Shown here piece after piece: positions 5,175-39,523 of a stretch of DNA of 64,000 bases (the first letter of the stretch is position 1; each line of letters begins with the position of its first letter). The notes under the pieces were generated by a model. It did no database searches. It was not told where the DNA came from and saw only the letters and a list, made by a program, of their open reading frames with translations. Origin of the DNA: Pseudomonadota bacterium (GTDB lineage: Bacteria > Pseudomonadota > Gammaproteobacteria > Steroidobacterales > Steroidobacteraceae); assembly GCA_018241445.1 (NCBI GenBank), contig JAFEDT010000017.1, positions 62,001 through 126,000 of the forward strand, given 5' to 3'. The position numbers and the translations under genes were made by a program.

Positions 5175-5229
5175 TCGCTGGCCTCACGCACCGCAGATGT
5201 CCACCGCCACCGGTGCTTGCGTAACCAGG

Positions 5230-5847
5230 TCAGGCCGGCCGCACGGCCTGGCGCACGACACCCACCACGATCCCCTCGATCAGCAGGGGCTCCTGCCTCA
5301 GGTCCACCTTGATTGGATCGAAATCGGTGTTCTCGGGCAGCAACCACACGACCGACCCCTCCTGGCGGTAACGCTTCACGGTGACTTCGTTTTCCAGGCG
5401 AGCCACCACGATCTGGCGGCTGCGCACCTCGGAGGTGCGGTGTACGGCGACCAGGTCCCCGTCGAGGATCCCGGCATCCCGCATGCTCATGCCGATGACC
5501 TTCAGCAGGTAATGCGGCCGCGGCTGGAACAGGCCGGGATCGATCTGCAGGCGGCCCTCGAAATTCTCCTCGGCGAAAATGGGTTTGCCGGCGGCAACCC
5601 GCCCGATGAGCGGCAGCCCGATCTGCTCGCGGATGGTGTCCCGGAGCTGGATGCCGCGGGAGGTTCCCGGCATCAGGGAGATGACGCCCTTGCGGGCCAG
5701 GGCACGCAGGTGCTCCTCAGCTGCATTGGCGGAACGAAACCCCAGTTCCTGGGCAATCTCCGCCCGGGTGGGCGGCATGCCCGTATCGGATATGAACCGC
5801 TGGATGAGGCGCAGGATCTGGGTCTGACGGGGAGTAAGGTCTGACAT
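5230..5847 (-). CDS. lexA: SOS repressor LexA
   Basis: Transcriptional repressor of the SOS regulon and RecA-stimulated autoprotease, 205 aa. An N-terminal winged helix-turn-helix ([39 protein letters not shown]) is followed by the cleavage site A86-G87 in GRVAAGKP. The catalytic dyad is Ser121 (GMSM) and Lys158 (EVTVKRY). Length and motif spacing match canonical LexA. The ATG at 5847 lies 11 bp from a consensus LexA box, so the gene should be autoregulated and should control the downstream imuA-imuB-dnaE2 genes as well. Confidence 0.98.
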
Positions 5848-5858
5848 CGTGCACCAGC

Positions 5859-5874
5859 CTGTTTATACGTACAG
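5859..5874 (-). promoter_or_regulatory. LexA (SOS) box
   Basis: The sequence CTGTTTATACGTACAG matches the gammaproteobacterial consensus CTG-N10-CAG with an A/T-rich, near-palindromic core. It lies just upstream of the lexA start codon. It would cover the predicted transcription start of the lexA-imuA-imuB-dnaE2 operon. Confidence 0.93.
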
Positions 5875-5882
5875 TAACTGTG

Positions 5883-5910
5883 ATTATATCCAGATCGGGC
5901 TGCCCGGCAA
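5883..5910 (-). promoter_or_regulatory. Sigma-70 promoter of the lexA-imuABC operon
   Basis: On the minus strand a TTGCCG -35 (5905-5910) is followed after 16 bp by a perfect TATAAT -10 (5883-5888). The predicted start, near 5876, falls at the edge of the LexA box, so bound LexA should block initiation. Confidence 0.75.
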
Positions 5911-6378
5911 GCCCGCCGGAACCACCCCACCGAAGACCCCGGACGACCGCCCTGGCCCTCCTGCCCGTCAGCCCCAGATCCTCCGGCTGCCAGTCCCAGG
6001 GAACCCCGGCCGGCCCACCCTGCCGGCCGGCCCTGCCGGCGGGCCCGCCCTGCCGGCCAGCCCTCTTCAGCCAGCCACTCCAATGACAAAATCTTAACGA
6101 CCGACTCAACCTCCATCTGTGCCATTGCCATGATGTCAGTTGCATCAAGCACTGGAATTTCCCGGATGAAACACCCGTGCATTACTCCGTCACGCCTGAC
6201 CGGACCGAGTCCGTCACCAGCGCAACTGTCGCGTCCAAAAGACAACTTACATGTTTGGAGTTGCATTCCAAGCGTAAATTTGGTGCAGTTGCGCGCGGCG
6301 GACGCCGGCGGTGCTTGCCCCCGGAGTCACATCGTTTAAGGACATCCCGGAATCAATAACCCAGAAGGGGACGGATAT
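5911..6378. other. Intergenic region between lexA and the Lpp-like gene
   Basis: This 468-bp divergent intergenic stretch has no convincing gene. The lexA-proximal half is extremely GC-rich and holds short direct repeats at 6018-6066. The half nearer the lipoprotein is less GC-rich and presumably carries its promoter. No well-spaced -35/-10 pair could be chosen. A ribosome binding site (AAGGGG) sits about 9 bp before the ATG at 6379. Confidence 0.5.
6018..6066. repeat. GC-rich tandem repeats of CCCTGCCGGC type
   Basis: The 9-mer CCCTGCCGG occurs three times (6018, 6031 and 6048), with related CCGGCC/GGGCCC spacers and a further CCCTC remnant. The spacing of 13 and 17 bp is irregular. The block could form strong secondary structure upstream of the lexA promoter; no function can be assigned. 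Confidence 0.6.
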
Positions 6379-6696
6379 ATGAAGTGCGCGAGTGTTGTTA
6401 AGGCGGCGGCTGCCGTTGTTGCGATTATCGGACTTGCCGGTTGCCAGGACCTGAAGCCCCTGCAGGCTGACGTTGCCAGCCTCAAGGACCAGGTGGCCAA
6501 GCTGACGAGCGACACCGCGAGTGCCAAGAGCGCTGCGGATGCTGCCAACAGCGCCGCCTCCTCAGCCAGCCAGACTGCCAGCGGTGCGCAGAGCACGGCC
6601 AACCAGGCCCTTGCTGCTGCTCACGCCAGCCAGTCGTGCTGCGATGCGACCAACGAGAAGATCGACCGCATGTTCAAGCGCTCGGTCTCCAAGTAA
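6379..6696 (+). CDS. Lpp-like alanine-zipper outer-membrane lipoprotein
   Basis: Small lipoprotein of 105 aa. The signal peptide ends in the lipobox LAGC with acylated Cys at about residue 23. A heptad-like helix follows (LQADVASLKDQVAKLTSD, then an Ala/Ser-rich stretch to about residue 85), matching the alanine-zipper trimeric coiled coil of Lpp/OprI proteins. The C-terminus is KRSVSK; a terminal lysine is where Lpp is joined to peptidoglycan, so a structural envelope role is plausible. An unusual Cys-Cys pair (SQSCCDA) sits near residues 87-88. The gene is monocistronic and is followed by a strong terminator. Confidence 0.85.
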   Translation: MKCASVVKAAAAVVAIIGLAGCQDLKPLQADVASLKDQVAKLTSDTASAKSAADAANSAASSASQTASGAQSTANQALAAAHASQSCCDATNEKIDRMFKRSVSK

Positions 6697-6720
6697 GACT
6701 TACCAGTCTCGCTTGCAAAC

Positions 6721-6750
6721 AAAACGCCGCGCAGCAATGCGCGGCGTTTT
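6721..6750. terminator. Bidirectional hairpin terminator
   Basis: A perfect 12-bp inverted repeat, AAAACGCCGCGC and its complement, surrounds a 6-nt loop and has T-rich flanks on both strands. It lies between the convergent lipoprotein and methyltransferase genes and can serve both. Confidence 0.9.
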
Positions 6751-6762
6751 CTTTTGCGCGGA

Positions 6763-7788
6763 TCAGCTGCGGTAGCCGATCACCATGGTATCCGGGCCCG
6801 GCAGGGCGATTGCCTGGGTGCGGCGGAATCCCACCGTCTTCAGCCACTGCCGACAGTCGCGGATGGTGAAGTCGAAACCGCCCGGCGTCTCGATGAGCAT
6901 GTTGAGGCTCATCAGCAGTCCGGGCAGATTCCTGCTGCGGTCGTTGTCGATCATCGCCTCGTACACGATGAGCGCCCCGTTCTTTGGCAGCGCGCTGTAG
7001 GCCTTCTGCAGCAACAGGTGCTTCTGCTGCAGATCCCAGTCGTGCAGGACGTGGCCCATGATCAGCACGTCGGCCGACGGCAGCGGGTCGCGGAAGAAAT
7101 CCCCGCCGGTGAAAGTCAGGCGCCCCTGCAGCCCGAAGCGGCGTACGTACTCCTCGTAGATCGGCTGCACCGCCGGCAGGTCGAACTCGCTGCCCGCCAG
7201 GTGCGCATGGGCCAGGGCGAGCTGCACGCCGACCGCACCCTGCGCCCCGCCCACGTCGCAGAAGCTGCGGTAGCGCTTCCAGGGAAACTTGCGGGCTATG
7301 GCGCGCGCGGCGCCCAGGCTGATGCCCGTCATTGCCGACAGGAAGCCGCGCAGGCGCTGCGGATCGGCATACAGCGCGCCAAACAGGTCCTCGCCGCGCC
7401 GGATCTCGTTCTGTGGCTCACCGGTGCGCAGGCCCTGCGTGAGCGCGCCCCAGAACCCGTACAGCCGTGACGCCATCATCTCCAGGATCCCGCCGATATA
7501 GGTGGGCTTGTTGCGATCCAGGAACAGGTCCGTCTCGGGTGTATTGGCGTACAGGCCGCGGCGGCGGCGCAGGACGCCCATGGCCACCAGCGCGTCGAAG
7601 AAATCGCGTGCGCTGCGTGCGTGCAGGCCGAGGGCCGCGCGCAGCGCCTCCTCCTTCTGTGCGCCCTTCGCCAGGTGAGTGAACAGGCCGAGCTCGACCG
7701 CACTCAGGAATGTACGCGAGGCCCAGAATCCCGTGCCGAGCTGCATGAGACGGTCCGGCTTCAGCGCGGATTTGCGTATCGCAGCCAT
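6763..7788 (-). CDS. SAM-dependent O-methyltransferase (acetylserotonin/CrtF type)
   Basis: Class I methyltransferase of the plant-type O-methyltransferase family, 341 aa. An N-terminal winged-helix dimerisation domain (residues 1-110) is followed by a Rossmann domain with the SAM loop DVGGAQG (178-184) and the conserved catalytic-type His249 in GHVLHDWD. Such enzymes methylate hydroxyls of polyketides, carotenoids or quinones; the substrate here is unknown. The start at 7788 follows a GGGGGGAG ribosome site; an ATG at 7791 is equally in frame. It lies 22-25 bp after fabH, in the position often taken by fabD, and looks like the last gene of the plsX-fabH operon. Confidence 0.85.
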   Translation of the reverse strand: MAAIRKSALKPDRLMQLGTGFWASRTFLSAVELGLFTHLAKGAQKEEALRAALGLHARSARDFFDALVAMGVLRRRRGLYANTPETDLFLDRNKPTYIGGILEMMASRLYGFWGALTQGLRTGEPQNEIRRGEDLFGALYADPQRLRGFLSAMTGISLGAARAIARKFPWKRYRSFCDVGGAQGAVGVQLALAHAHLAGSEFDLPAVQPIYEEYVRRFGLQGRLTFTGGDFFRDPLPSADVLIMGHVLHDWDLQQKHLLLQKAYSALPKNGALIVYEAMIDNDRSRNLPGLLMSLNMLIETPGGFDFTIRDCRQWLKTVGFRRTQAIALPGPDTMVIGYRS

Positions 7789-7813
7789 CATGCTCCCCCC
7801 TCGCCCACGATGT

Positions 7814-8773
7814 TCAATAGCGTACCAGCGCCGAACCCCAGGTAAATCCGCCGCCGAAGGCCTCCAGCAACAGCAGTTCACCGCGGCGGATGCGCCCGTC
7901 GCGCACCGCGGCGTCCAGGGCCAGGGGCACGGAGGCCGCTGAAGTGTTGCCGTGGTCCTGGATGGTCAGGATCACCTTCTCCATCGGCAGCTCGAGCCGC
8001 CGCGCGATCGCCTGGATGATGCGGATATTGGCCTGGTGCGGCACCAGCCAGTCGAGCGCACTGCGATCCAGTCCGTTGGCGGCCAATGCCTCGTCCACCG
8101 ACTGGCCAAGCCTGGTCACCGCAACCTTGAACACCTCCGACCCGGACATGACGATCCGTGGCTGCCGATTGACACCGCTGCCCTCGCCAGGCCTGGAGCA
8201 GTAGAGCAGATCCTTGTACTGGCCGTCGGCGTGCAGATGGGTTGAGAGAATTCCTGCGGTTGGCGACGGCTCGAGCACTACGGCGCCGGCGCCGTCGGCA
8301 AACAATATCGCCGTGGTGCGGTCGGTCCAGTCGGTGATGCTCGACAGCCGTTCCGCGCCCACCACCAGGGCGCGCCGCGCTTCCCCGCTGCGCACATACT
8401 TGTCGGCGATCGAAAGTGCATACAGGAAGCCGGCACAGGCGGTCTCGAGGCTGAAGGCCGGGCCGCCCAGGCACCCCAACCGCTGCTGCAGCAGCACGCC
8501 GCAGTTGGGAAACACCAGGTCCGGCGTGGTGGTGCCGAAGGCAATGAAGTCTATGTCGGAGGGTTTCAGCCCGGCGGCCTCGATCGCGCGCCGCGCCGCG
8601 TGCTCGGCCATGTCGACGGTGCCCTCGCCGTCTGCGGCGATGTGGCGCCGCTCGATGCCGGTACGGGTGCGTATCCACTCATCGCTGGTATCGACCAGCT
8701 TTTCCAGGTCGGAGTTACTGACGACTTTTGCCGGCAGGTAGGAGCCGGTTGCGGCGATTCGCGAGTGGATCAC
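7814..8773 (-). CDS. fabH: Beta-ketoacyl-ACP synthase III FabH
   Basis: Condenses acetyl-CoA with malonyl-ACP to start type II fatty acid synthesis. The product is 319 aa with the complete triad Cys113 (ETACAGF), His246 (VPHQANI) and Asn276 (DHGNTSAAS), and the C-terminal GGGFTWGSALVRY. It starts at a GTG overlapping the plsX stop by 4 bp (GTGA). The gene belongs to yceD-rpmF-plsX-fabH. Confidence 0.97.
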   Translation of the reverse strand: MIHSRIAATGSYLPAKVVSNSDLEKLVDTSDEWIRTRTGIERRHIAADGEGTVDMAEHAARRAIEAAGLKPSDIDFIAFGTTTPDLVFPNCGVLLQQRLGCLGGPAFSLETACAGFLYALSIADKYVRSGEARRALVVGAERLSSITDWTDRTTAILFADGAGAVVLEPSPTAGILSTHLHADGQYKDLLYCSRPGEGSGVNRQPRIVMSGSEVFKVAVTRLGQSVDEALAANGLDRSALDWLVPHQANIRIIQAIARRLELPMEKVILTIQDHGNTSAASVPLALDAAVRDGRIRRGELLLLEAFGGGFTWGSALVRY

Positions 8774-9780
8774 GCAGCGCTTCCCTCGATGTGCAGCGCC
8801 TGGGCAATGTGCGCCGTGAGCCCGCGGCGCGCGGCCAGCGCGGCCGTGCCGATGGCGCGCGCAAAGGCGACGGGGTCCGCGTGACCGTGACTTTTTACCA
8901 CGATCCCGGCCAGGCCGACCATGCAGGCGCCGTTGTAGCGCCGCGGATCCAGGCTCGCGGCGGCGCGCCGCAACACCGGGCGGGCGATCAGGCCGGCGAG
9001 TTTCGAAGTGAACGAGGCCTGGAATTCCTGGCGCAGCCGCCCGCCGATCAGGGCGGCGACGCCTTCCATGGTTTTCAGCGCGACGTTGCCGGTGAATCCA
9101 TCGGTAACCACAACATCGACGTCGCCGGAGAAGATGTCGTCGCCTTCGACAAAGCCAACGTAGTTGAGGCCGCTGCTCGCCAGCAGCGCGTGCGCCGCCT
9201 GCACCACCTCGTGTCCCTTCATGTCCTCCTCGCCGATGTTGAGCAGCCCGACGCGCGGCGTGGCGACACTGTAGACATCGCGGGCGATGATCGTGCCCAT
9301 GGCGGCGAACTGCCGCAGCTGCTCGGGCGTCGCCTTGGTGTTGGCGCCCAGATCCAGCATCTGCGTCAGGCCATGTGCGGCGGGAATCGCCGAGATGATC
9401 GCGGCGCGCTCCACCCCGGGCAGGGTCTTGAGGACAAAGTGGCTGATGGCGGTCAGCGCGCCGGTGTTGCCGGCGCTGACCGCAGCGCAGGCGCGGCCCT
9501 CGTGCACCAGGTCGACCGCGACGCGCATGGACGACTGCTTCTTGCGGCGGATGGCATCGCGCGGCTTGTCGTCCATCGCGACCACCTCCGTTGCGGCGAC
9601 GACCCCGGTGCGCTCACGCACCGCGGCGGGCTGCTGCGCCAGGGCCGCCTCGATCACGGCCGGCGCGCCGACCAGCAGCAGGTGCATCTGTGGATCGTCC
9701 ACGAGCGCACGCACGACGCCCGCGAGGTACTCGTGCGGCGGGTGGTCGCCGCTCATCACGTCGATTGCCAGAGGCAGCAC
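8770..9780 (-). CDS. plsX: Phosphate acyltransferase PlsX
   Basis: Makes acyl-phosphate from acyl-ACP for phospholipid synthesis (with PlsY). The product is 336 aa, the usual length. Family landmarks are the N-terminal LAIDVMSGDHPP, the SAGNTGAL motif near residue 100 and VVVTDGFTGNVALK near residue 220. It starts with GTG at 9780, about 50 bp after rpmF, and overlaps fabH by 4 bp. Confidence 0.97.
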   Translation of the reverse strand: MLPLAIDVMSGDHPPHEYLAGVVRALVDDPQMHLLLVGAPAVIEAALAQQPAAVRERTGVVAATEVVAMDDKPRDAIRRKKQSSMRVAVDLVHEGRACAAVSAGNTGALTAISHFVLKTLPGVERAAIISAIPAAHGLTQMLDLGANTKATPEQLRQFAAMGTIIARDVYSVATPRVGLLNIGEEDMKGHEVVQAAHALLASSGLNYVGFVEGDDIFSGDVDVVVTDGFTGNVALKTMEGVAALIGGRLRQEFQASFTSKLAGLIARPVLRRAAASLDPRRYNGACMVGLAGIVVKSHGHADPVAFARAIGTAALAARRGLTAHIAQALHIEGSAA

Positions 9781-9830
9781 TGGCTGATCCAGGCGCCGGG
9801 AAATCCCCGCGGCGGTCCGGCTGCGGCGCC

Positions 9831-10025
9831 TCAGCCCTTCTCGTCCGGTTCCGTCGGCTTCTCGATCACACGCCGCCCGCGGTAGAAACCATCCGGGGTG
9901 ATGCGATGGCGCAGGTGGGTCTCGCCCGACTGCGGATCTGTGGACAGCGCCGGTCCGGCGAGCCCGTCGTGCGAACGGTGCATGCCGCGGCGCGATGGGG
10001 TCTTGCGGCTCTTTTGAACGGGCAT
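9831..10025 (-). CDS. rpmF: 50S ribosomal protein L32
   Basis: Ribosomal protein L32, 64 aa. It begins with the diagnostic [20 protein letters not shown] and contains [20 protein letters not shown]. It belongs to the proteobacterial L32 type without zinc-binding cysteines. It starts directly after the yceD stop, linking ribosome and lipid synthesis genes as in other gammaproteobacteria. Confidence 0.97.
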
Positions 10026-10535
10026 TTACGTCTCCTGGCGTTTCATCAGTTCCGCCAGCCGCGCGAACGGCTGGTGGGTTTCGTGTCGGTCTTCGTCAGC
10101 GGCCGCGGGCTGCGCGGCACAGTCGCTCCGCTCATGCAGCGGCACGATCGGCAGCGCCAGCAGCACTTCTTCGCGGATCAGGTCCCCGATGCTGGTGCGC
10201 CCCCCGGGCGCGAGCACCGTCTCCAGTTCCGGCGGTACGCGTTCGGCCGCCCCGGACGTCTCGACCAGCGCCACGCGTCCCTGGCTGTCCAGGGGAAGCT
10301 GCAACGGTTGCAGACAGCGCTGACACGTCAGCTCCGCGTGGCCTGACAGACTCAGGTCCGCAACCGCTACGCCTCCCTGACGCGTGAAATGCACCCGTCC
10401 CTGCACGCTGCCGGCAACCCCCGCCTGGGGGGCCTGCGAGCCAAACAGTTCGGCGAGCGGGACAGCAAAGTCGATATCGGCTCCGCCGTCGGCCAGCCGG
10501 TCCACTTCGAGTGGCCTCGACCAGGGCGGCGACAT
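10026..10535 (-). CDS. yceD: YceD/DUF177 family protein
   Basis: Homologue of YceD, linked in the literature to 23S rRNA accumulation; its molecular role is unclear. It carries the CQRC pair (residues about 88-91) and the C-terminal PIVPLHERSDC segment. The frame extends to an ATG at 10568, but a TTGACT-N17-TATTAT promoter lies in that extension. The N-terminus MSPPWSRPLEVDRL aligns better with E. coli YceD, so ATG 10535 is preferred (169 aa). The mRNA would then begin about 3 nt before the start codon, that is nearly leaderless. Confidence 0.88.
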   Translation of the reverse strand: MSPPWSRPLEVDRLADGGADIDFAVPLAELFGSQAPQAGVAGSVQGRVHFTRQGGVAVADLSLSGHAELTCQRCLQPLQLPLDSQGRVALVETSGAAERVPPELETVLAPGGRTSIGDLIREEVLLALPIVPLHERSDCAAQPAAADEDRHETHQPFARLAELMKRQET

Positions 10536-10544
10536 GGGGCGCGT

Positions 10545-10573
10545 ATAATAGGTACCGGGTTCGTCCAAGTCAA
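10545..10573 (-). promoter_or_regulatory. Sigma-70 promoter of yceD-rpmF-plsX-fabH
   Basis: On the minus strand TTGACT (10568-10573) and TATTAT (10545-10550) are separated by 17 bp. The predicted start near 10538 is only a few bases from the ATG at 10535. The same bases read TATAAT on the plus strand, but no -35 for maf is visible there. Confidence 0.65.
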
Positions 10574-10612
10574 AAGCCCGTACCCTTCTAAGCCTTTGTT
10601 TATCCAGCCCCC

Positions 10613-11191
10613 GTGCGCCAACTGCTGTTAGCCTCCACCTCCGCCTACCGCCGCGCGCTCCTGACCCGTCTCGGATGCCCCTTCGAAGTGTCTGCCCCCG
10701 GGGTTGATGAAACTCACCTTCCCGCGGAACTGCCGGTGGACCGGGCTGCCCGACTGGCGCTCGCCAAGGCGCTGGCGGTGGCGCAGAAGCACCCTGATGC
10801 CATCGTGATCGGCAGCGACCAGGTGGCCACCGACGGCGCGCAGGTTCTGGACAAGCCGGGCAATGCGGCGCGCGCCCGCGAACAACTGGCGCTGCTGTCG
10901 GGCCGCCACGCAGGCTTTCATACTGCCTGCGCAGTGGTGCAGCTCTCCGGCGGCATGCGCCTCGTCCACATCGATACGACGACCGTGGTGTTCCGCGCCC
11001 TGGATGCTGCTGAAATCGCGCGCTACGTGCAGCGGGAGCAACCTCTCGACTGCGCCGGCGGCTTCAGGGTGGAAGCCCTGGGAATCTCACTGTTCGAGCG
11101 GATCGACAGCCATGATCCCACGGCCCTGATCGGACTGCCGCTGATCTGGCTGGCCGGTGCTCTGCGCCAGGCCGGCCTGCCGATACCTTAG
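10613..11191 (+). CDS. maf: Maf/YceF family nucleotide pyrophosphatase
   Basis: House-cleaning nucleoside triphosphate pyrophosphatase, 192 aa. YceF-type members hydrolyse 7-methyl-GTP. It has the signature LLLASTSAYRRALL at the N-terminus, the catalytic IGSDQVA near residue 68, and the FRVEALG and DPTALIGLPL motifs typical of the family. The start is GTG at 10613. It is divergent from yceD, as in many gammaproteobacteria. Confidence 0.95.
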   Translation: MRQLLLASTSAYRRALLTRLGCPFEVSAPGVDETHLPAELPVDRAARLALAKALAVAQKHPDAIVIGSDQVATDGAQVLDKPGNAARAREQLALLSGRHAGFHTACAVVQLSGGMRLVHIDTTTVVFRALDAAEIARYVQREQPLDCAGGFRVEALGISLFERIDSHDPTALIGLPLIWLAGALRQAGLPIP

Positions 11192-11216
11192 GAATCTTCA
11201 GCGCGGCCCCGGACCC

Positions 11217-12245
11217 TCAGGGGCCGGCGCTGCGGCGCCGCGCACGCTGTGCGGCCGATGTCAGGGCATCCAGCACCGCGGCCAGCTCCGGCGGCAGGGG
11301 TGCATTGACGCTGAACTGCCCGCCCTGCGGCCACTCGAAACTCAGGCTGTGCGCATGCAGGAACATGCGTGTCAGTCCCAGCGCGCGCATCTGGCCGTTG
11401 AAGGCTTCGTCGCCATAGCGGTCGTCTCCCGCCACCGGGTGGCCGGCATGGCGGGCGTGCACGCGGATCTGGTGCGTACGCCCGGTTTCCAGTGTTACCT
11501 CCATGAGGGTCGCGATCTTGCCGAAGAACTGCACCGGCCGGAACAGGCTCACCGAGGGCTTGCCGGAGTCGGATACGCGCACCGTGCGCTCGCCGCCCAC
11601 GCGGGTGTCGGTGCGCAGCGGCACATCGATACGCTTGGCGCCCAGGTCCCACTTGCCGCGCAGCAGCGCCAGGTAACGCTTCTCGAAACCCCGGTCCTCG
11701 CGCAGCAGCGCATGCAGCGTGCGCAGCGCATCGCGCTTGCGCGCGACGAGCAGGCAGCCACTGGTGTCACGGTCCAGGCGGTGCACCAGTTCCAGCGTCT
11801 CCTGCGGACGCAGGGCGCGCAGCGCCTCGATGACGCCGAAGCTCACCCCACTGCCCCCGTGCACCGCAACGCCCGCGGGCTTGTTCACTACGAGCACGCG
11901 CTGGTCCTCGTAGATGATCGCCGCGGCAATGCGCCGAATCAGGTCTGGGCCCGGCTTGCCGGGCTCGGCGGCCGGCTCCGGCCGCACCGGCGGCACCCGC
12001 ACCACGTCGCCCTCGGCCAGCCGCGCCTCGGGGCTGGCCCGCCGGCCATTCACCCGGGCCTCACCCTTGCGGATGATGCGGTAGATCCGGCTGCGCGGCA
12101 GGCCTGCCAGGCAGCGCAACAGGTAGTTGTCCAGGCGCGATCCCGCCTCGTCCCCGGTGACGGTCAGGTTCTGCACGGGGGTGCGGATCTGGGGGGTCTG
12201 CGACCCGGGATTCGTCTCGGACAAGGGGCTCTCGGCGTAAGGCAT
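11217..12245 (-). CDS. rluC: 23S rRNA pseudouridine synthase RluC
   Basis: RluA-family pseudouridine synthase modifying 23S rRNA, 342 aa from ATG 12245. An N-terminal S4 RNA-binding domain (SRLDNYLLRCLAGLPRSRIY; KGEARVNGRRA) precedes the catalytic domain with the active-site Asp in HRLDRDTSGC and the ETGRTHQIRVH motif. It is divergent from rne, as in E. coli, and convergent with maf. An upstream in-frame extension overlaps the rne promoter region and is not supported. Confidence 0.94.
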   Translation of the reverse strand: MPYAESPLSETNPGSQTPQIRTPVQNLTVTGDEAGSRLDNYLLRCLAGLPRSRIYRIIRKGEARVNGRRASPEARLAEGDVVRVPPVRPEPAAEPGKPGPDLIRRIAAAIIYEDQRVLVVNKPAGVAVHGGSGVSFGVIEALRALRPQETLELVHRLDRDTSGCLLVARKRDALRTLHALLREDRGFEKRYLALLRGKWDLGAKRIDVPLRTDTRVGGERTVRVSDSGKPSVSLFRPVQFFGKIATLMEVTLETGRTHQIRVHARHAGHPVAGDDRYGDEAFNGQMRALGLTRMFLHAHSLSFEWPQGGQFSVNAPLPPELAAVLDALTSAAQRARRRSAGP

Positions 12246-12274
12246 TGTTTCTAATATGGTCAGTCGAGTATACT
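12245..12274 (+). promoter_or_regulatory. Candidate rne promoter
   Basis: TTGTTT (12245-12250) and TATACT (12269-12274) are separated by 18 bp on the plus strand. Transcription from here gives an rne leader of about 325 nt. The -35 overlaps the rluC start codon region. Confidence 0.5.
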
Positions 12275-12607
12275 CCGCCGGTCGTCCGCATAACGGACGC
12301 ACCAGTGGCGCGCGGCGTGGAGCCGGCGCCCTTTTAGTTGGACCTCTGTAAAGAGGCCATCGCATTGGGCCGACAAGATTGCGCTGCCTGCGTAGAAGCG
12401 CGTGGATACCACGCATATTCCGCGGTCAGCCGTCGGTTGAGTTCACCGAAGGTTTTCTGTCCGTACCGCCTGATCTGGCGGTCAGCAACGTGAATATCGA
12501 GAATCGTTCACCAAGGCCAGGTGCAGTAAACCCTCGCTGCCGCGCGACCCGTTTCCCGCGGCCTCCCGTCGTATGCCTGTCGGCCCCTCACCGCACAGTA
12601 GGGGCAC
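12275..12607 (+). promoter_or_regulatory. Long 5' leader of rne
   Basis: About 330 bp precede the rne start without any credible gene. A small hairpin (GTCCG-loop-CGGAC near 12283-12297) is visible, and the ribosome site AGGGGC sits just before ATG 12608. In E. coli a 361-nt rne leader mediates feedback by RNase E cleavage. Length and position suggest the same here, but this is inference. Confidence 0.45.
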
Positions 12608-15127
12608 ATGAAGAGAATGCTAGTGAATGCAACTCAGGAAGAGGAGTTGCGCGTAGCTCTGGTTGATGGACAGAAGCTGATTGACCTGAGTATCGAATTA
12701 CCTTCCCGCGAACAGAAGAAAGCCAATATCTACAAGGCCCGGATCGCCCGGGTCGAACCCTCGCTCGAGGCCTGCTTCGTCGACTACGGCGCCCAGCGCC
12801 ACGGATTCCTGCCGCTCAAGGAAGTCTCGCGCGACTACTTCCGCCAGCAGCCGCAGGGCGGGCGCATGAACATCCGCGAGCTGCTGCAGGAGGGCCAGGA
12901 GGTCATTGTCCAGGTCGAGAAGGAGGAGCGCGGCAACAAGGGCGCTGCCCTGACCACCTTCATCAGCATGGCCGGCCGCTTCCTGGTGCTGATGCCCAAC
13001 AACCCGCGCGCCGGCGGGGTCTCGCGCCGGATCGAGGGCGAGGACCGCGACCAGATGCGCGAGGTCATGAACCAGCTGCAGATCCCTGAGGGCATGGGCG
13101 CCATCGTGCGCACCGCCGGCGTCGGCCGCACGGTCGAGGAGCTGCAGTGGGACCTGGACAATCTCAAGACTCAATGGGAGCAGATCGACGCCGCCACCCG
13201 GGAGCGGCCCGCACCCTTCCTGGTGTTCCGCGAGAGCGACGCGGTGACGCGCGCCATGCGCGACTACCTGTCGGACGATGTCGGGGAAGTGCTGGTGGAC
13301 AGCCCCGCGGCCTTTCAGAAGGCACAGGAGTACATGCAGCGCTTCATGCCGGCCGACGCGCAGCGGCGCCTGAAGCTCTACACCGACGACATCGCGCTGT
13401 TCACCCGCTTCCAGATCGAGAGCCAGATCGAGTCGGCCTATGCCCACAAGGTGCAGCTGCCCTCCGGCGGCAGCATCGTCATCGATTACACCGAGGCGCT
13501 GGTATCGATCGACATCAACTCCGCCCGGGCCACGCGCGGCAGCGACATCGAGACCACGGCCACCAACACCAACCTGGAGGCGGCCGATGAGATCGCCCGC
13601 CAGCTGCGCATCCGCGACATCGGTGGCCTGATCGTCATCGACTTCATTGACATGGAGTCGGCCAAGAACCAGCGTGAGGTCGAGGACCGCCTGCGTGACG
13701 CCATGAAGATGGATCGCGCCCGCATCCAGATCGGGCGCCTGTCGCGCTTTGGCCTGCTGGAGATGTCACGGCAGCGCCTGCGGCCGTCGCTGGACGAGTC
13801 CAGCCACCTGGTCTGCCCGCGCTGCGTCGGCATCGGCAGCATTCGCAGCGTCGAGTCCATGACCCTGGCGGTGCTGCGGCTGATCGGCGAGGAACTGCGC
13901 AAGGATCGAACCGCGCGAGTCATCGCGCAGGTGCCGGTATCGGTGGCGACCTACCTGATCAACGAGAAGCGCGAATGGCTGCGCACGCTCGAGGACAAGA
14001 GCGAGGCGGAGCTGATCATCGTCCCCAACGAGAACATGCAGACGCCCGACTACGCCATCCGGCGCCTGCGTGACGATGAGGTCGACCAGCCGGAGAACCG
14101 TCAGGCGACCTACCTGATGCCGACTGCGCCCGAGACCACCGAGCCGGGCTCCCAGGACCGCAAGCCGGCTCCGGTGGCGGCGGCCGTTGCGACGCTGTTG
14201 CCCGCTACACCGGCTCCGATGGCCACTGCAACCGCGCCCGCCGCGGCTGCAACTGCCGAACCGGCCGCGGCCACACCGGCGGGGACCGGGGGCTTCTGGT
14301 CGAAGGTCAAACGCATCCTGGCTGGCGAGCCCGCCGCCACCGCGGCGGCCGGGTCTGCGCAGACCGAAGCGGCGCCCCCCGCGGCACGCGGCGACGGCCA
14401 GCGCCGTGAGCCACGCCGTGAACATGGACGCCACTCGCGCAGCGCCGAGGGTGGCGCGCGCCGCGATCGCGGCGACGGACGCCGGGGCGAAGGCCGCGGC
14501 GACCGGGACCGTGGCCGGGACGGCCGTGACCGCAACCGTGATTCCGGCCGGCGTCATGAACGCCAGGGCCAGCGCAGCGGCGGCGAACGCGGACCGGAAC
14601 GCGAGGCCGCGCGCGAGGGCGCAGCGCGCGGCGGCTCGTCCGAGCGTGCCGAGCGAGCGCCGGAACTGCAGCGCAGCGAAGCGGGCGGGCCGCCCTCTGC
14701 CGCCACGGGCGGTGAGGAACAGCGTGGTGAACGCAGTGGACGCGGGCGCCGTGGCCGGCGCCGCGGGCGGCGCGGCGGGGGCGGGAGTGCGGGCCGTGAG
14801 GCAGCAGCCGCGGGCGCCGCGGCGCCGCTGCAGGACGCGGCTGCAGGCGTCGAACGCCACGCCGGCAGTGCGCCGGGCGACCGTGAAAATGGGGGTCCAG
14901 ACGTCACGGACCACGGCATTGCCACGACCCAGCCGCTGCCGCAGCTGCAGGTGCCGGCGGAAAGCCAATCCCACTTCGAGCCGCCGCGCAACAGCGAGGC
15001 GTCGCAGGGTGCGCTGCACTTCGAGCCGCCTGCGCGTACGGATGCGCCAGCGGCGGCGCCGGGCAAGCCGTTCGTGGTGTGGTCCTCCGCTGCGCAGGAT
15101 TCGGGCACTCGCGGGCGCGAAGAGTAG
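12608..15127 (+). CDS. rne: Ribonuclease E
   Basis: Endoribonuclease E, core of the RNA degradosome, 839 aa. The catalytic half has an S1 domain (residues about 35-120), DNase I-like residues in [10 protein letters not shown] (near 303) and VIDFIDMES (near 346), and the Zn-link CPRC at about 404-407. Residues after about 500 are low-complexity. They include an Ala/Thr/Pro stretch, a short helix [12 protein letters not shown] near 565 (possible membrane or partner anchor), and a very Arg/Gly-rich RNA-binding region (about 595-740). The C-terminus contains a repeated SHFEPP/LHFEPP pair, possibly a docking motif. Confidence 0.97.
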
Positions 15128-31382: not shown

Positions 31383-32090
31383 ATGAACCAGCCGCTGCCA
31401 CAATGGCCGCACCGCGTCGGCGTGATGCAAGCGATCACCCTGCCCGCGCTGCTGGCGACATTCGTCCTGGGTCTGTCGAGCCTGGTCGGCAGTGCCTCGG
31501 CGCAGGAGGCCGCTGCGGCAGCGGCGGCCCCGCCAGCCACACCGGCACCCTCCGCCAGCATCTACAACATCGAGATCGTGATTTTCCGCAACAACGGCGC
31601 GCAGGGAGGCGGCGAGAACTGGAGCGTCCAGGCGGGCCGCAGTATCGCCGGCGACGAATCCGCGAGCGGCGGTTCGCAGGTCGGGCGCTTCGTCGCCTCG
31701 TTGCCGCAATCGGCGTGGCAGCTCACCGAACTCGAGGGCCGCCTGCGCGCCAGCGGCGCCTACACGCCGGTGGCGCACGCGGCCTGGTCGCAGACCGCCA
31801 GCGCCTGGGGCACCCGCGCCGGCTTCCCCATCGACCGCCTCGGCATCGACGTGCCCGGCCTCAGAGGTACCGTGCTGCTGGAACGCGGCCAGTTCCTGCA
31901 CCTGGGTATGACCCTCAACTACACCATGGATTCCCCGCCTGCGGGCCTGGGGGCCGCCCCGGGCACCACCTTCACTCTCAACCAGAGCCGGCGTGTGCGC
32001 TTCTACGAGCGTAACTACTTCGACCACCCCGCTTTCGGCGTGATTGCCCTGGTCACCCCCGTGCAGGCGGCGCGCGCTGCGGGTCGCTGA
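31383..32090 (+). CDS. csiV: CsiV family peptidoglycan-binding protein
   Basis: Exported protein of 235 aa with an N-terminal signal segment (LPALLATFVLGLSSLVGSASAQ). The family core starts at SIYNIEIVIFRNN (about residue 59) and ends with LNQSRRVRFYERNYFDHPAFGVIALVTP. CsiV proteins in other gammaproteobacteria bind peptidoglycan and help cells respond to D-amino acids; position directly after mfd is typical. Its 3' end overlaps the convergent MFS gene by 38 bp. Confidence 0.85.
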   Translation: MNQPLPQWPHRVGVMQAITLPALLATFVLGLSSLVGSASAQEAAAAAAAPPATPAPSASIYNIEIVIFRNNGAQGGGENWSVQAGRSIAGDESASGGSQVGRFVASLPQSAWQLTELEGRLRASGAYTPVAHAAWSQTASAWGTRAGFPIDRLGIDVPGLRGTVLLERGQFLHLGMTLNYTMDSPPAGLGAAPGTTFTLNQSRRVRFYERNYFDHPAFGVIALVTPVQAARAAGR

Positions 32091-33324
32091 GGGGTCCGCC
32101 GCCGCTGCGCGGCAGCCCACGGGCCGCCAGCAGCGCGATCAGCGCAGCCGGCAACAACACCACCGGTGTCAGCTGCCAGCCGCCTGCCCGCTCGGCCACC
32201 GCCGCGGCCAGCGGCGGTCCCAGCAGCTGCCCGATGTTTGATCCCTGCACGACCAGTCCCATCACCGTGCCGGCGGCGCCGGCACCGCGTGCGGCGGCCG
32301 GCACGCTCGCGAACACCGACGCCGGCAACAGCCCGCCGCACAACGAAAACGCCAGCAGCAACAGGTAACGGGCGAACGGTCCCACGGCCGGCAGGTAGAT
32401 GCCCAGCGCCGCCACCGCCATCACCAGCGACCCCGCGCCGATCAGCCCGGCCGGACGGAAGTGACGCGTCATCAGTACGCCGGCGAGCAGATTGCCTGCC
32501 GCGTTGGCCAACGCCACCCCGGCGGTCAGGTTGCCGGCCTGCTGAATGCTGATGCCCTGCTGATGCAGCAGCGTAGGCAGGAAGCCGAGTACCGCCAGGT
32601 ACTGCAGCGTGTACATGCAGAAGATCAACGCCAGGCGCAGCGCGGCGGCGCGGTCCCAGCGGACGTCCTGACGCTGCGCCACCGCCTGCCGTGCCGGCGC
32701 GGCCGCGGCGCGCGTGGCCACCAGGCACGCCGCCAGCAGTGCGGCGAGCAGGGCGCAGACGCGCCACAGATAACGCCAGCCCCCGGCGTGCAGCAACAGC
32801 GGTGCTCCCACGAGGGCGACGCCTAAGCCGGTGGGCATGTAGATGCCCCACAGCGCGCTGACGAAACGACGATCGGACGGCGCCGCCGCACGCCCGAGCA
32901 CCGTGGGGATCGCGACGACGGCGAGCAGGAAGCCCAGGCCCTCCACCGCGCGGCTCGCCAGCAGCAGCGCAGCGCCCTGCGCCATCGCACCCACATAACT
33001 GGCGGCCGCCATGCAGATGAGGCCCACGACCGCCACCCGGCGTGCGCCGAGGCGGTCGGTGACACGCCCGGCAAAGAATCCGGCGAGGGCGCCCACGGCG
33101 CTCAGGAGCGACAGGACCCAGGCTGCCTGTACGATACTGAGATGCAGCTCATCCAGCAGTGACGGCAGCGCCGGCGGCACCTTGCCCGCGTGCAGGGCCG
33201 CACCCACACCGCAGCCGAGCAGCAGCGCGATCTCCTGCCAGCGAGTGGGTGGATCGGCCCGCACCAGCGGCGCAGCCTCGCCGGCTGGTGCAGGGTCAGC
33301 CCCGCTTGCGTGTTTCAGGTTCAT
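32053..33324 (-). CDS. MFS transporter
   Basis: Major facilitator superfamily protein of 423 aa with 12 predicted helices. The MFS motif GRVTDRLGARRV is between helices 2 and 3 (residues about 86-97), and the second half begins after ARQAVAQRQDVRWDRA. It resembles CynX/NimT-like small-molecule transporters, but no substrate can be given. The ATG overlaps the RES toxin stop by 4 bp (ATGA), which makes it the third gene of an Xre-RES-MFS unit. Confidence 0.85.
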   Translation of the reverse strand: MNLKHASGADPAPAGEAAPLVRADPPTRWQEIALLLGCGVGAALHAGKVPPALPSLLDELHLSIVQAAWVLSLLSAVGALAGFFAGRVTDRLGARRVAVVGLICMAAASYVGAMAQGAALLLASRAVEGLGFLLAVVAIPTVLGRAAAPSDRRFVSALWGIYMPTGLGVALVGAPLLLHAGGWRYLWRVCALLAALLAACLVATRAAAAPARQAVAQRQDVRWDRAAALRLALIFCMYTLQYLAVLGFLPTLLHQQGISIQQAGNLTAGVALANAAGNLLAGVLMTRHFRPAGLIGAGSLVMAVAALGIYLPAVGPFARYLLLLAFSLCGGLLPASVFASVPAAARGAGAAGTVMGLVVQGSNIGQLLGPPLAAAVAERAGGWQLTPVVLLPAALIALLAARGLPRSGGGPLSDPQRAPPARG

Positions 33325-34409: not shown

Positions 34410-34438
34410 AGAATACTCGTATTTATTTTCTATTGCAA
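34410..34438 (-). promoter_or_regulatory. Promoter of the Xre-RES-MFS operon with direct-repeat operator
   Basis: On the minus strand TTGCAA (34433-34438) and TATTCT (34410-34415) are 17 bp apart. Two partially conserved 20-bp direct repeats of the type TTGCAnTnGAAAATnAA start at 34438 and 34410, with 14 of 20 positions identical. They are candidate autoregulation sites. Confidence 0.65.
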
Positions 34439-34930
34439 TTCCACGCCAGATTGCGCCTCGAGCTCCGCCAGGCCCTGCCCTGCTGAGAGAGCCACAGCCT
34501 GGGACGAAGGTTGTCGCGGCCAGGGAGTGCTCCCCGCGGAGGGGGTCGAACCCGGAAACCAACACTCACGTCACGGTTTTGCCGGCGTCTTCAAAACAAC
34601 ATCGGGCATAAACCAGGTCCGACCGCGCCGTTCGCGTGCAGCAGCCACCGCCATTGCGTGCCAGTGCGCGCCGCGAATGGCGCGCTGAACTGCGCGCTGC
34701 GCACTGCAGGCATGGCGCTCGAACCGTCGGCATCCTGCGACGTTTGCTGCTGTTTCTATGGGCGAGCCGTCGGTGTTCGGCGACGCGGCCGCGCTGCTTC
34801 GTCTGTGTTCACCGACATTTGCGAAAAAAAGTTCGCGCGCGAGTTTCGCGACCGCCATTTTGTGATCGCTTCCCCATTACCATGCGCGGCGAAAGGTATC
34901 TTGGCGCTGTCGTCGCAAGTGGGGTCGCAC
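34439..34930. other. Intergenic region with no credible gene
   Basis: About 490 bp separate the antitoxin and the WGGGH lipoprotein gene. Open frames here have no recognisable features. A GTCGAACCC T-loop-like string at 34545-34553 has no tRNA context. The A-rich GCGAAAAAAAGTTCGC hairpin near 34818-34833 may belong to the promoter or leader of the gene at 34931. The composition is less GC-rich than the neighbouring housekeeping DNA. Confidence 0.4.
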
Positions 34931-36667
34931 ATGGTGGAGCATACGAAGCGGATCACCCGCAGTCTGGGTGGGCTTGTGGCCGCGATGATTTTTCTCGCGG
35001 GCTGTCATGATCAGAGTGTTCGCTCGTCGACGCCTTCTTCACCAACATCAAATTCGCCACCACCATCCACTTCACCGCCGCCGTCCACATCGCCGCCCCC
35101 GACTTCGCAGGGATCGCTGACCATCGGAACGGCCGCCCTGCCCAACGCACAGGCGGGCTACCGTTACGGCACCGTGCTGCTGGCCCGTGGTGGCAGCACG
35201 CCCTACCGCTGGTCGATCGGCAGCGGAGCACTGCCGGCGGGCCTGGTGCTTGATGCCGCGACGGGCAAGCTCGCGGGCACGCCGAGTTCCTCCGGCACGT
35301 TCAAGTTTTCGGTCAGGGTGACCGACGCAAAGTCCACCAGCGCGACGCTGTCACTGGGCCTGAACGTGGCGCCGCCTCCATTGGGCCCGCAAACGCTCAG
35401 CTCTGCGCCGGGCTGGCACAGGATCCCCGCGACTGCCATGTGCGGCGGCGGACCGGAGCACAATCCGCCCTTCAGTGATCCGGACAACTTTCCCCAGAAC
35501 CTGAATCCGGCATACGCCAGCTACGGCTTCGGATTCACCAGGGAATGCTACAGCCTGCTGGAAGACTCCAACGGCGGCGCTTATGACACCCAGCGGCACC
35601 GGCTGCTCATGTGGGGTGGCGGCCACCAGCATTACTGGGGCAACGATGTGTACTCGCTGGAGATGTCCACGCTCAGCATGGTGCACCTGGATCATTCCGC
35701 CAACCCCGTCACCTGTCCGGCGATGGGAACCCCGGGTACCGAGCCGGGAACTACCCTCACCACGCCCGCCGGTGCGATTTGCAAATACAATGCCGTCAGC
35801 GGTTCCCTGACCGTACTTGGCCACCCCGGCTGTACTTATGCTCCGGGCTGCACGCCCACGCAGCATACGACGCCCGGTTCCGTGCACACCTACAATGGCC
35901 TGGTCTATATCCCCGGCCAGGATGAAATGGTCGAGTTTGGCGGCGTGACCGGGCCATACGGCAATGGCACGCAGAACGTGTGGATGCTGGCGCTGTCCTC
36001 GGTGCTGGCCAGCTGCGCTCCGGGTTGCGACCCGAACTGGACTTCACTGGGCGATCCAGCGGCGAATTCGGCCTTCACCAACCCCGGCAACGTAGGTGTC
36101 GTTGCGGCCTACGATCCGAACACGCAGGGGGTGTGGATCCACAGCCAGTCCAACCTGCAGTTCTTCAACCCGACGACCAATTCCCTGACTGTGAAGGCAA
36201 ACCAGGTCATCGGCTATCACTCGAGCGGCGTCGTCGACCCGCTGCACAAATACTTCATCCTGATCGGCCCGCAGTCCACGACGAGTGCCAGGGAAGGCAT
36301 CCTCTACATCGACATTTCCGGCAGCAACCTCGCTTTGCAGACACCTGCGACGAATGGCTGCGGCAACATGAACGGCGGCACAAATGCCAATCCACAGTAC
36401 ATGGGGATGCAGTGGGACCCGATCGGAAAACGGGTAGTGATCTACCCGAACGCCGGCAACGTCGTGTGGTACCTGGATCCCGCGACCTGGACCTGTACGT
36501 CGGAAGTTTATGGTGCCACGCAGGGCACGGACTACCCCCAGGACGTGCCGATATACGGCGGGCAGAACGGCACCTTCGGGCACTTCGGCTATGACCCGAC
36601 GCTGGACGTGTTCGTGTTGTGCAACGACCCGTTCAACGACTGCTGGTACCTGGTCCCCAGCCGCTGA
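34931..36667 (+). CDS. WGGGH-type lipoprotein with Ig-like domain and predicted propeller
   Basis: Surface or periplasmic lipoprotein, 578 aa. The signal peptide ends in LAGC (Cys25), followed by a Pro/Ser linker (residues 30-60). An Ig-like He_PIG domain (about 63-148) contains LPAGLVLDAATGKLAGTPSSSG. A long C-terminal domain (150-578) is rich in Gly/Asn/Trp, with Kelch-like repeats such as RLLMWGGGHQHYWGNDVYSL and GTFGHFGYDPTLDVFVLCND and many Cys pairs. The fold is probably a beta-propeller; the function is unknown. It is convergent with a paralogue at 36743-38335 that shares both motifs. Confidence 0.75.
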   Translation: MVEHTKRITRSLGGLVAAMIFLAGCHDQSVRSSTPSSPTSNSPPPSTSPPPSTSPPPTSQGSLTIGTAALPNAQAGYRYGTVLLARGGSTPYRWSIGSGALPAGLVLDAATGKLAGTPSSSGTFKFSVRVTDAKSTSATLSLGLNVAPPPLGPQTLSSAPGWHRIPATAMCGGGPEHNPPFSDPDNFPQNLNPAYASYGFGFTRECYSLLEDSNGGAYDTQRHRLLMWGGGHQHYWGNDVYSLEMSTLSMVHLDHSANPVTCPAMGTPGTEPGTTLTTPAGAICKYNAVSGSLTVLGHPGCTYAPGCTPTQHTTPGSVHTYNGLVYIPGQDEMVEFGGVTGPYGNGTQNVWMLALSSVLASCAPGCDPNWTSLGDPAANSAFTNPGNVGVVAAYDPNTQGVWIHSQSNLQFFNPTTNSLTVKANQVIGYHSSGVVDPLHKYFILIGPQSTTSAREGILYIDISGSNLALQTPATNGCGNMNGGTNANPQYMGMQWDPIGKRVVIYPNAGNVVWYLDPATWTCTSEVYGATQGTDYPQDVPIYGGQNGTFGHFGYDPTLDVFVLCNDPFNDCWYLVPSR

Positions 36668-36696
36668 TCCGCGCCAGCTATCGGGGTCAACCCGCC

Positions 36697-36730
36697 GATC
36701 CCGGGGAGGCGCTCAAGCCCTCCCGGGATC
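36697..36730. terminator. Bidirectional terminator hairpin
   Basis: GATCCCGGG and its perfect complement CCCGGGATC flank a further GAGG/CCCTC pairing with one bulge and an 8-nt loop. The hairpin sits between two convergent genes. Confidence 0.75.
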
Positions 36731-36742
36731 CGCTTAAGGCAA

Positions 36743-38335
36743 TCAGGGGCAACCCAGGACCATGGTCGCCGTGCTGGTCTGCGTGAGCGAGCCGCTGGTG
36801 CCCGTGATGGTCACATTCGAAGTCGTTCGCGGGGTGCCACTCGGAACGGTTACGGTCAGCGTGGAGCTGCCCGAATCAAAGACCGAGGCCGGATAGAACT
36901 GCCAGGTTGCCCCGGCCGGCAGTCCGCTCGCCGACAGACTCACACTGCCGACGTTGCCCGTCGCCGCTATGTTGACGACCGCGCTGGCGGTATTGCCGGG
37001 GCAGGTCGCGAGCGTGAAGCTGGGCGGGGGAGCGGCGTTGCCACGCAGCCTCAGGACGTAAGCGGGAATGTTCCAGTCGTTGACCAGGACGAAGGCATCG
37101 TACGCCGGAAAGTACTGGAAGCGCCCGAAGGTTCCGAAGCTCGAGCTGGTCGAGCCATAGGCATGCGCGGAGTTCGGCGGCCCTCCGGGGAACGTCACCA
37201 CCTGGCAGCTCAGCTTTTTGTTCACCGTGTCGGGTGTGATGATGTAAACGCTGTTGCCCTCGTTCGGCCACCCCACGAAGTTGCCCGCGACCGGGTCGTA
37301 GACGAAGCCCGGGTTCGCCGAACCGATGTTGTTTGCGCCGCCCGAGAGGAACTGCGCGCAGTTCGGGTCCGTCAGGGTCGCCGCCGTCCAGTTCTGGCCG
37401 GTCGTGCTGGCAGGGTTGCTGATATCGGCCACGTATACGCCGTGACCCGCCTGGCAGCTTCCGGCGCTGCAGCCCCCCACCGCGACGAACAGCCTGCGGG
37501 CGGGATCTATGGCGCCGCTCATGTAGTAGCTGGTGAGGAAGCCCCAGGACCCGGTAATGCGGTTATAGGTGTTGGTCTTGTAGTTGTACGTAGCGAGGTC
37601 GTAGGTATCGCTGACGAACACCAGCCCGGTGACCGGATCGTACACGGCGATATTACCCTGGGGATACCCGTTGTAATTCTGGCCTGGCTGCGTCCCGATC
37701 ATCGTCGGGTTCTCGTAAGTCCACGCCGTGGAATTGGAAATATTATTCAGCGGAATGGTCCAGGTGCCGCTGCCGCCATTGGCCTGCCCGCAGGCCAGGG
37801 CGCCGTTGAGCATGTACAGCACCCCGGCGTTGGCGATATAGGCCATGCCCTCGTAGACCTCGCGGGAATTCGGCGCGAATCCCGTGCTGCCCGGTGGCAG
37901 GCTCTCGACGCAATTGGCGGAATTCGCGTAGTTGGTCGGGATGGTCGGATCCTTCAGGCGCGTCAGCGTGATCGGATTCGCCCCGAGATTGAGCGCATAA
38001 ATTTCGTTGCCGTAATAATTGTTGTGGCCACCGCCCCAGATGATCAGCCGGTTCCCCTGGGTGTCGGCCACGGCGCCATTCCAGGCACGGATCACGTTCT
38101 GACAGTTGGACGCGAACGCGAATGGATCGCCGCCGAAGTAGTTGGGAGGGCAGGCGCCACTGCCCTGCAACGAGGTGGACGCGGGCAGCGCAGTCCAGCC
38201 AAGCGTTGTCGGCATCTGCGCCTGGGCCGGCCGCCAGGCGCCGACCGCCAGGAGCGCACATGCGAGCGTCAGAAGGAAGGTGCGGCGTGCTGCGCGTACT
38301 GCCGGAGAAAACTGCGCCGGTGCTATATCTGGCAT
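36743..38335 (-). CDS. Exported WGGGH-type predicted propeller protein
   Basis: Secreted paralogue of the neighbouring lipoprotein, 530 aa. A Sec signal peptide (residues about 20-40, ending AQA) is followed by a predicted propeller with NRLIIWGGGHNNYYGNEIYAL (about 93-113), several DPVTG/YDP blade turns and GTFGRFQYFPAYDAFVLVND near 415-434. The last about 95 residues are an Ig-like Ser/Thr-rich domain ending LGCP. ATG 38335 is chosen because a GAAGGGA ribosome site precedes it by 7 bp. No enzymatic residues were recognised. A secretion or adhesion role is possible but not shown. Confidence 0.75.
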   Translation of the reverse strand: MPDIAPAQFSPAVRAARRTFLLTLACALLAVGAWRPAQAQMPTTLGWTALPASTSLQGSGACPPNYFGGDPFAFASNCQNVIRAWNGAVADTQGNRLIIWGGGHNNYYGNEIYALNLGANPITLTRLKDPTIPTNYANSANCVESLPPGSTGFAPNSREVYEGMAYIANAGVLYMLNGALACGQANGGSGTWTIPLNNISNSTAWTYENPTMIGTQPGQNYNGYPQGNIAVYDPVTGLVFVSDTYDLATYNYKTNTYNRITGSWGFLTSYYMSGAIDPARRLFVAVGGCSAGSCQAGHGVYVADISNPASTTGQNWTAATLTDPNCAQFLSGGANNIGSANPGFVYDPVAGNFVGWPNEGNSVYIITPDTVNKKLSCQVVTFPGGPPNSAHAYGSTSSSFGTFGRFQYFPAYDAFVLVNDWNIPAYVLRLRGNAAPPPSFTLATCPGNTASAVVNIAATGNVGSVSLSASGLPAGATWQFYPASVFDSGSSTLTVTVPSGTPRTTSNVTITGTSGSLTQTSTATMVLGCP

Positions 38336-38587
38336 TTTGGATCCCTTCACCGATGTCCTTGTTGTTCTGCGAATGTGATCAGTATCTCACAGCGTGATGT
38401 CAATGCACGCGTGAATGCGCGGTGCGGGCCGCGATCACAGATTATGTCGAAGTGTAAGGAGATCGCTCAGGCGCGCACTGAAACAGCGCTTCTTGGCAAC
38501 ACGAGTCGCCAGCGGCGTCAGCATGGCGGCGCCCGTCGCAATATTGCGACGGCCCGCACAAAGCTGCGGGCATCCCTGCTGTCGGCG

Positions 38588-39523
38588 CTACTGGAAGTCC
38601 GCCGCCACGGCGCTCGCGACTGCCCCGCGCCCCTGGCCCTTGGCGCGCCGCACGGCCGCCTGGCAGGCCTTCAGCAGCCCTGAAAGCTCCAGGTTGCGTG
38701 GCGGCACCAGGCTCGCCACCCCGACGCTCACCGTCACGTAGCGCTCGGGCCCTCCGGCCGGATGGTGCATCAGCAGGTCACGCACTCGCTGGGCAACCGT
38801 CTGCGCGTACTGTGCGCCCCGCTCCGCCGCCTCGCCCTGGGTCAGCACCGCGAAGGTGCCGCCATCCCAGCGGCCCACCAGGTCCCCGCCGCGCCGGTAG
38901 GAGGCGCCGATGACCCGCGCCACGCGGCGGATGCAGGCATCGCCCGCGGCGCGATCGAACTTGTCGTTGTACGCGTTGAGGTAGTCGATGTCGAACATCG
39001 CCAGGCTGACCTCGTGCGAATCGCGCTGCGCAAACGACCAGTCCCGCTGCAGCAACTCCTCGAACCAGGCGCGCGAGTACAGGCCCGTCAGCCGGTCATC
39101 GCGCAGCCACGACGGCAGTCCCGCTGCCACCGCGCGTTCCCCGCCCTTCAGGCGCTCGCCGGCATCACGGTGATAACCCACAAAGTGCGTCAGGCGCCCG
39201 TGTCCGTCACGCACCGGCTGCATCACCGTCTCATTCCAGAACAGCGAGCCGTCGGGGCGGTAGTTACGCAGCAAAACACGTGCGGACTCGCCGTTGCGCA
39301 CGGCCTCGGCCAGGCGCGAGCGCGCCTCCTGGTCCCGGTCGTTGCCCTGCAGGATGCGCAGGTTGGTTCCCAGCAGTGCCGCGGCCGGGTAGCCGCACAT
39401 CTGCGCGAAGGAGGTATTGACGAACACCGCCGGTACGTCCGGGGCGGTGGCGTCACAGATGACGATGCCCTCGGGTGCGTTCTCCGTCACGCGGCGCCAG
39501 GCTTCGGCCGTCCAGTTTTTCAT
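38588..39523 (-). CDS. LOV/PAS-GGDEF protein with degenerate active motifs
   Basis: Predicted soluble signalling protein, 311 aa. Residues 10-125 form a LOV-type PAS domain (FVNTSFAQMCGYPAAALLGTN; NYRPDGSLFWNETVMQPVRD). The flavin-adduct Cys of the usual GxNCRFLQG is Leu55 (GTNLRILQG). The GGDEF domain (about 143-300) keeps metal and fold residues FDIDYLNAYND and an RxxD I-site (Arg211-Asp214). Its signature, however, is DGGTF (220-224) instead of GG(D/E)EF. It is likely a c-di-GMP or redox sensor rather than a light-activated cyclase. It follows nagZ by 9 bp. Confidence 0.87.
   Translation of the reverse strand: MKNWTAEAWRRVTENAPEGIVICDATAPDVPAVFVNTSFAQMCGYPAAALLGTNLRILQGNDRDQEARSRLAEAVRNGESARVLLRNYRPDGSLFWNETVMQPVRDGHGRLTHFVGYHRDAGERLKGGERAVAAGLPSWLRDDRLTGLYSRAWFEELLQRDWSFAQRDSHEVSLAMFDIDYLNAYNDKFDRAAGDACIRRVARVIGASYRRGGDLVGRWDGGTFAVLTQGEAAERGAQYAQTVAQRVRDLLMHHPAGGPERYVTVSVGVASLVPPRNLELSGLLKACQAAVRRAKGQGRGAVASAVAADFQ

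Follow-up and report, generated by a model that had tools for sequence, protein, structure and literature searches.

Kelch propellers are known chiefly as protein-binding domains, and beta-propeller polysaccharide lyases (PL24, PL25, PL42 and others) are secreted propellers that act on polysaccharide. Many environmental bacteria carry exosortase-A exopolysaccharide (EPS) clusters. On the viral side, the tailspike of phage K1F reportedly acts on capsule polysaccharide. A propeller in this tailspike is on record, grouped with Asp-box-type propellers (PMC3797127), and the jumbo phage vB_PcaM_CBB carries kelch-like proteins, one of them found in the virion (PMC5259590), so that phage propellers as a kind are already known.

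We analysed two genes, P0001 and P0002, in a 64-kb stretch of DNA (the window), which encode exported proteins with a common core named here for its WGGGH motif. This core resembles kelch-type beta-propellers (Pfam PF24681; KEAP1, muskelin, LZTR1) in fold class and weakly in its repeats, but the WGGGH family is set apart by its invariant GGGHxxYxGN, its export, and its phage and EPS-cluster setting. The kelch propellers of CBB offer a phage parallel, and a CBB protein ranked second in the viral fold search, but the likeness is by fold only (13% identity). The K1F tailspike also has a propeller in a phage protein, although of Asp-box rather than kelch type, and it was absent among the fold matches listed for P0001 and P0002. 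With PL24, PL25 and PL42 our proteins share the character of secreted propellers, yet the matches listed for either propeller, whether by PDB sequence or by fold, included no known PL family. Finally, many bacterial WGGGH genes lie inside exosortase-A (XrtA/PEP-CTERM) EPS clusters, including one in the genome that contains the window, whereas P0001 and P0002 lie outside, and WGGGH genes are accessory to such clusters and not cluster-defining.

The two window genes and their insertion

An earlier note, made from the DNA sequence, had described this locus as a convergent pair of paralogous exported proteins with shared motifs and swapped Ig-like domains. The individual proteins were as described (Table 1). 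P0001 is a lipoprotein whose N-terminal He_PIG domain scored 43.5 bits, above the PF05345 cut-off (24 bits). P0002 is secreted, with a signal peptide (ARRTFLL...AQA) read from its sequence; its C-terminal Ig-like domain was weakly recognized by profiles (Big_13, E 0.042) but was 61% identical to the C-terminus of P0004, a lipoprotein of the same genome, and both proteins end in GCP. Cysteines near either end of this domain, likewise in P0004, suggest a disulfide. A C-terminal anchor on P0002 was considered and rejected (NCBIfam NF058595 invert_tail, 18.7 bits against a cut-off of 37 bits). The cores of P0001 and P0002 aligned with 30% identity over ~390 residues (E 2e-31), which indicates that their common motifs reflect homology and not chance.

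P0004 itself is a 312-aa lipoprotein of Ig-like domains (L007:7704-8642, contig C2). Beside it are three related genes with a common VEAGKRYLVD...GDAAWSL motif, which are secreted-glycosidase-like in appearance.

Table 1. Coordinates of the two genes, their domains and motifs, and the surrounding features in the window.
Feature	Position	Strand	Description
P0001	34931..36667	+	578-aa lipoprotein: signal and lipobox (FLAGC), Pro/Ser linker, He_PIG Ig domain, WGGGH propeller
He_PIG Ig domain of P0001	35087..35368	+	residues 53-146, E 4.5e-11
WGGGH kelch-type propeller of P0001 (predicted)	35393..36664	+	about residues 155-578, C-terminal
WGGGH motif of P0001	35612..35626	+	
P0002	36743..38335	-	530-aa secreted protein: signal peptide, WGGGH propeller, C-terminal Ig-like domain
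WGGGH kelch-type propeller of P0002 (predicted)	37037..38215	-	about residues 41-433
WGGGH motif of P0002	38024..38038	-	
C-terminal Ig-like domain of P0002	36746..37033	-	about residues 435-530; low model confidence
Hairpin between convergent genes	36694..36733		possible bidirectional terminator, without T-run
Species-specific insertion with pair	34420..38636		approximate extent, ~4.2 kb

The GC content of the pair stretch was 63-65%, compared with ~68-70% in its surroundings, in agreement with the less GC-rich, accessory stretch that had been proposed. Its accessory status was also evident from comparative data. The RES/Xre toxin-antitoxin genes beside the pair are real, but in genus relatives they lie about 0.2 kb (165-220 bp) from a GGDEF gene, with the pair absent. 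This identifies the pair as part of a species-specific insertion that is unlinked to the toxin-antitoxin locus. A toxin-antitoxin-linked island was accordingly rejected, as was a tRNA-targeted insertion, given that no tRNA was found in the window. With regard to the terminator placed between the genes, the hairpin exists, but it was not reported by our terminator scan and lacks a T-run; its role as a terminator is thus only plausible. Close to the pair, we also observed a second species-specific gene, an MFS transporter (window 32053-33324, minus strand) that was present in 0/57 other genus genomes at E 1e-40 and whose flanking genes are conserved.

Predicted fold and ancestry of the cores

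AlphaFold2 models were built with alignments of window, genome-contig and viral relatives (P0002, pLDDT 78.1 and pTM 0.80; P0001, pLDDT 69.8 and pTM 0.70). Fold searches, with modest TM-scores, returned kelch propellers (muskelin, KEAP1 and LZTR1 among them) for P0001 and various propellers (sialidase, muskelin, Cj1041c) for P0002, and a profile of 27 cores matched kelch chains in the PDB by sequence. By model, fold search and profile, both cores are therefore predicted to be kelch-type beta-propellers, the outcome of the structure prediction that the earlier note had suggested. Both scored below the PF24681 cut-off of 50 bits (P0001, 14.5 bits; P0002, 18.1 bits), and a relative (L075) exceeded it with 61.4 bits. 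Across a 43-row core alignment, GGGH, Tyr67, Gly69 and Asn70 were invariant, and Glu71, Tyr73, His119 and Tyr121 were nearly so.

Our core tree, made by a quick method with SH-aLRT support only, comprised 86 rows, of which 59 were viral. P0001 grouped first with P0003 (support 97), which is encoded by a prophage in the same genome and is 68% identical to P0001 over 450 residues; a viral row joined next (100). P0002 instead grouped with two proteins of one Acidobacteriota metagenome-assembled genome (100; 65-67% identity). Both fell within one clade of 25 rows (98), in which 17 rows are viral, 5 bacterial and 3 from the genome itself. The two proteins are homologous and convergently encoded, but they are not sister paralogues.

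Searches of other genus genomes gave no match to either core. Core matches occurred in 15/296 genomes of the order (own genome counted) and in 2/398 other genomes of the phylum sample. We found the two genes adjacent in no other genome searched and no convergent pair elsewhere, the only near neighbours being a co-directional tandem (L080), so that conservation of the pair was rejected. P0001 and P0002 are separately acquired, independent members of a large, scattered and little-described family, the very outcome that the earlier note had named as refuting its proposal.

Exopolysaccharide clusters and phage structural regions

Neighbours of bacterial WGGGH genes included matches to TIGR03108, TIGR03098, TIGR03099, TIGR03100 and TIGR03101, as well as UDP-sugar dehydrogenases, glycosyltransferases and O-antigen ligase-type Wzy. 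One or more XrtA-EPS markers occurred at 13 of the 23 other bacterial loci, at none of the 75 viral loci and in none of the 13 control stretches; these counts are descriptive because the marker queries were drawn from some of the counted loci. No marker was detected in the control stretches taken from the window, which places P0001 and P0002 outside such a cluster. Contig C2 of the same genome does carry an XrtA EPS cluster (exosortase and a TIGR03108 gene), and inside it is a divergent WGGGH protein (L177:8515-9879; E 1.1e-17). Its gene directly follows those for hydrolase 1, hydrolase 2 and a glycosyltransferase, and L079 and L050 show the same gene order. This protein has a Tat-like signal (MKRREFL), and searches of relatives gave no match to it.

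The profile search for the family that the earlier note had recommended proved productive, as the core profile detected 75 viral loci, each on a viral contig, unlike a viral-contig search with P0001 alone, which gave no match. Among the matches listed for P0001 in phage and plasmid collections, mainly the Ig domain was covered, and searches of a phage collection with P0003 and P0002 gave no match. Neighbours of many viral WGGGH genes matched PHROGs for portal, terminase, major head, tail fibre and virion structural proteins; this structural-module context is present for WGGGH relatives and absent for the window genes. P0003 (L006:6847-8949, minus strand) has a signal peptide and is encoded between tail-tip/peptidase genes and an Rz-like spanin gene of a siphovirus-type prophage, whose region also contains terminase, head protease, major head, scaffold, tail terminator, major tail and tape-measure genes. 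Judged by a crude hydrophobicity rule, a signal-like N-terminus is present in at least 17 of 65 viral proteins, most of which belong to the clade that contains P0001 and P0002.

In several single ORFs (L109, L110, L096, L123, L146), the propeller-profile match was ~2x the usual length, which suggests tandem propellers in some phage proteins. Several consecutive genes of phage structural regions in two IMG/VR contigs (L084 and L091, about 800-13500) begin with Sec-like signal peptides, which is unusual for tail or fibre genes.

Phage propellers were fused to or partnered by LamG, Ig and beta-helix domains. A further partner domain (A8; 12 sequences) was fused to the propeller in bacteria (L053, L077, L081-L083) and phages (L085, L091, L093, L101), and was encoded next to it in L074-L076 and in phage L118. 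One A8 member resembles PF14099 Polysacc_lyase below the cut-off (E 0.001), and from this similarity we read A8 as a putative jelly roll. No PDB relatives of A8 were found, and P0001 and P0002 are without it.

Competing explanations and implications

The explanation that we favour, with slightly less than even confidence, is that P0001 and P0002 are exported EPS-binding, possibly EPS-processing, propellers that have been exchanged between hosts and phages. The occurrence of the family in both bacterial EPS clusters and phage structural clusters argues for an exported propeller with extracellular polysaccharide as its ligand, as do the divergent WGGGH protein in the EPS cluster of the same genome, the phage fusions with LamG and beta-helix, and the lyase-like A8, fused or adjacent in bacteria and phages alike. 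The sister relationship of P0001 to P0003, with its tail-tip/spanin position in a prophage, supports this further. The position of both genes outside the EPS cluster, their lack of A8, and the sub-threshold lyase similarity of A8 speak against it, as do the missing PL propellers among the fold matches listed and the protein-binding reputation of kelch domains. It is also possible, if rather unlikely, that the WGGGH propeller, often with A8, constitutes an undescribed EPS-degrading or -remodelling class of XrtA EPS clusters, exchanged with phages that act on the same matrix.

Under the favoured EPS-binding explanation, the same propeller would have been acquired twice independently, with P0001 lipid-tethered to the envelope and P0002 secreted. 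Family members would bind extracellular polysaccharide through a putative site of which the invariant GGGHxxYxGN and near-invariant SRHTY residues form part, and some may also cleave it. In the host, these proteins would shape or retain matrix, and in a phage they would help it to reach the cell through the matrix. Propellers may have passed between the two.

Three other explanations need to be weighed. The propellers could be protein-binding scaffolds or adhesins located on cell surfaces or phage tails, in line with the closest solved folds (protein-binding kelch domains), the frequency of Ig domains in adhesins and the virion kelch protein of CBB (PMC5259590). We consider this unlikely, since carbohydrate is the ligand suggested by the EPS-cluster setting and by partners of lectin, beta-helix and lyase-like type. 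That P0003-like propellers alter the lysogen surface or block phages, with P0001 as a host-retained copy, is a still less probable account. It would fit the signal peptide of P0003, the P0001-P0003 sister grouping and the viral members with signal-like starts, as well as the late-gene position of P0003, since conversion genes can occupy such positions. Most viral members, however, have no signal-like start by our crude rule and have structural neighbours, and we know of no exclusion phenotype. The surface complex or recognition pair envisaged by the earlier note is very improbable. The genes are adjacent, homologous, exported and carried on one common insertion, but the cores are not sisters, the genes are separate and convergent, no conserved pairing was seen, other genus genomes searched lack both, and the toxin-antitoxin locus is unlinked.

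The WGGGH family was not named by Pfam, NCBIfam or PHROGs in the searches made. Literature on kelch proteins with phages or EPS yielded the CBB report (PMC5259590) and no description of the family, which, together with its double EPS and phage setting, appears undescribed in the libraries and literature searched. A module common to EPS clusters and phage structural regions would imply that both act on a common polysaccharide. It would reveal the target recognised by these phages and bring new candidate matrix-active proteins to light, and it gives a lead to the function of this unnamed family.
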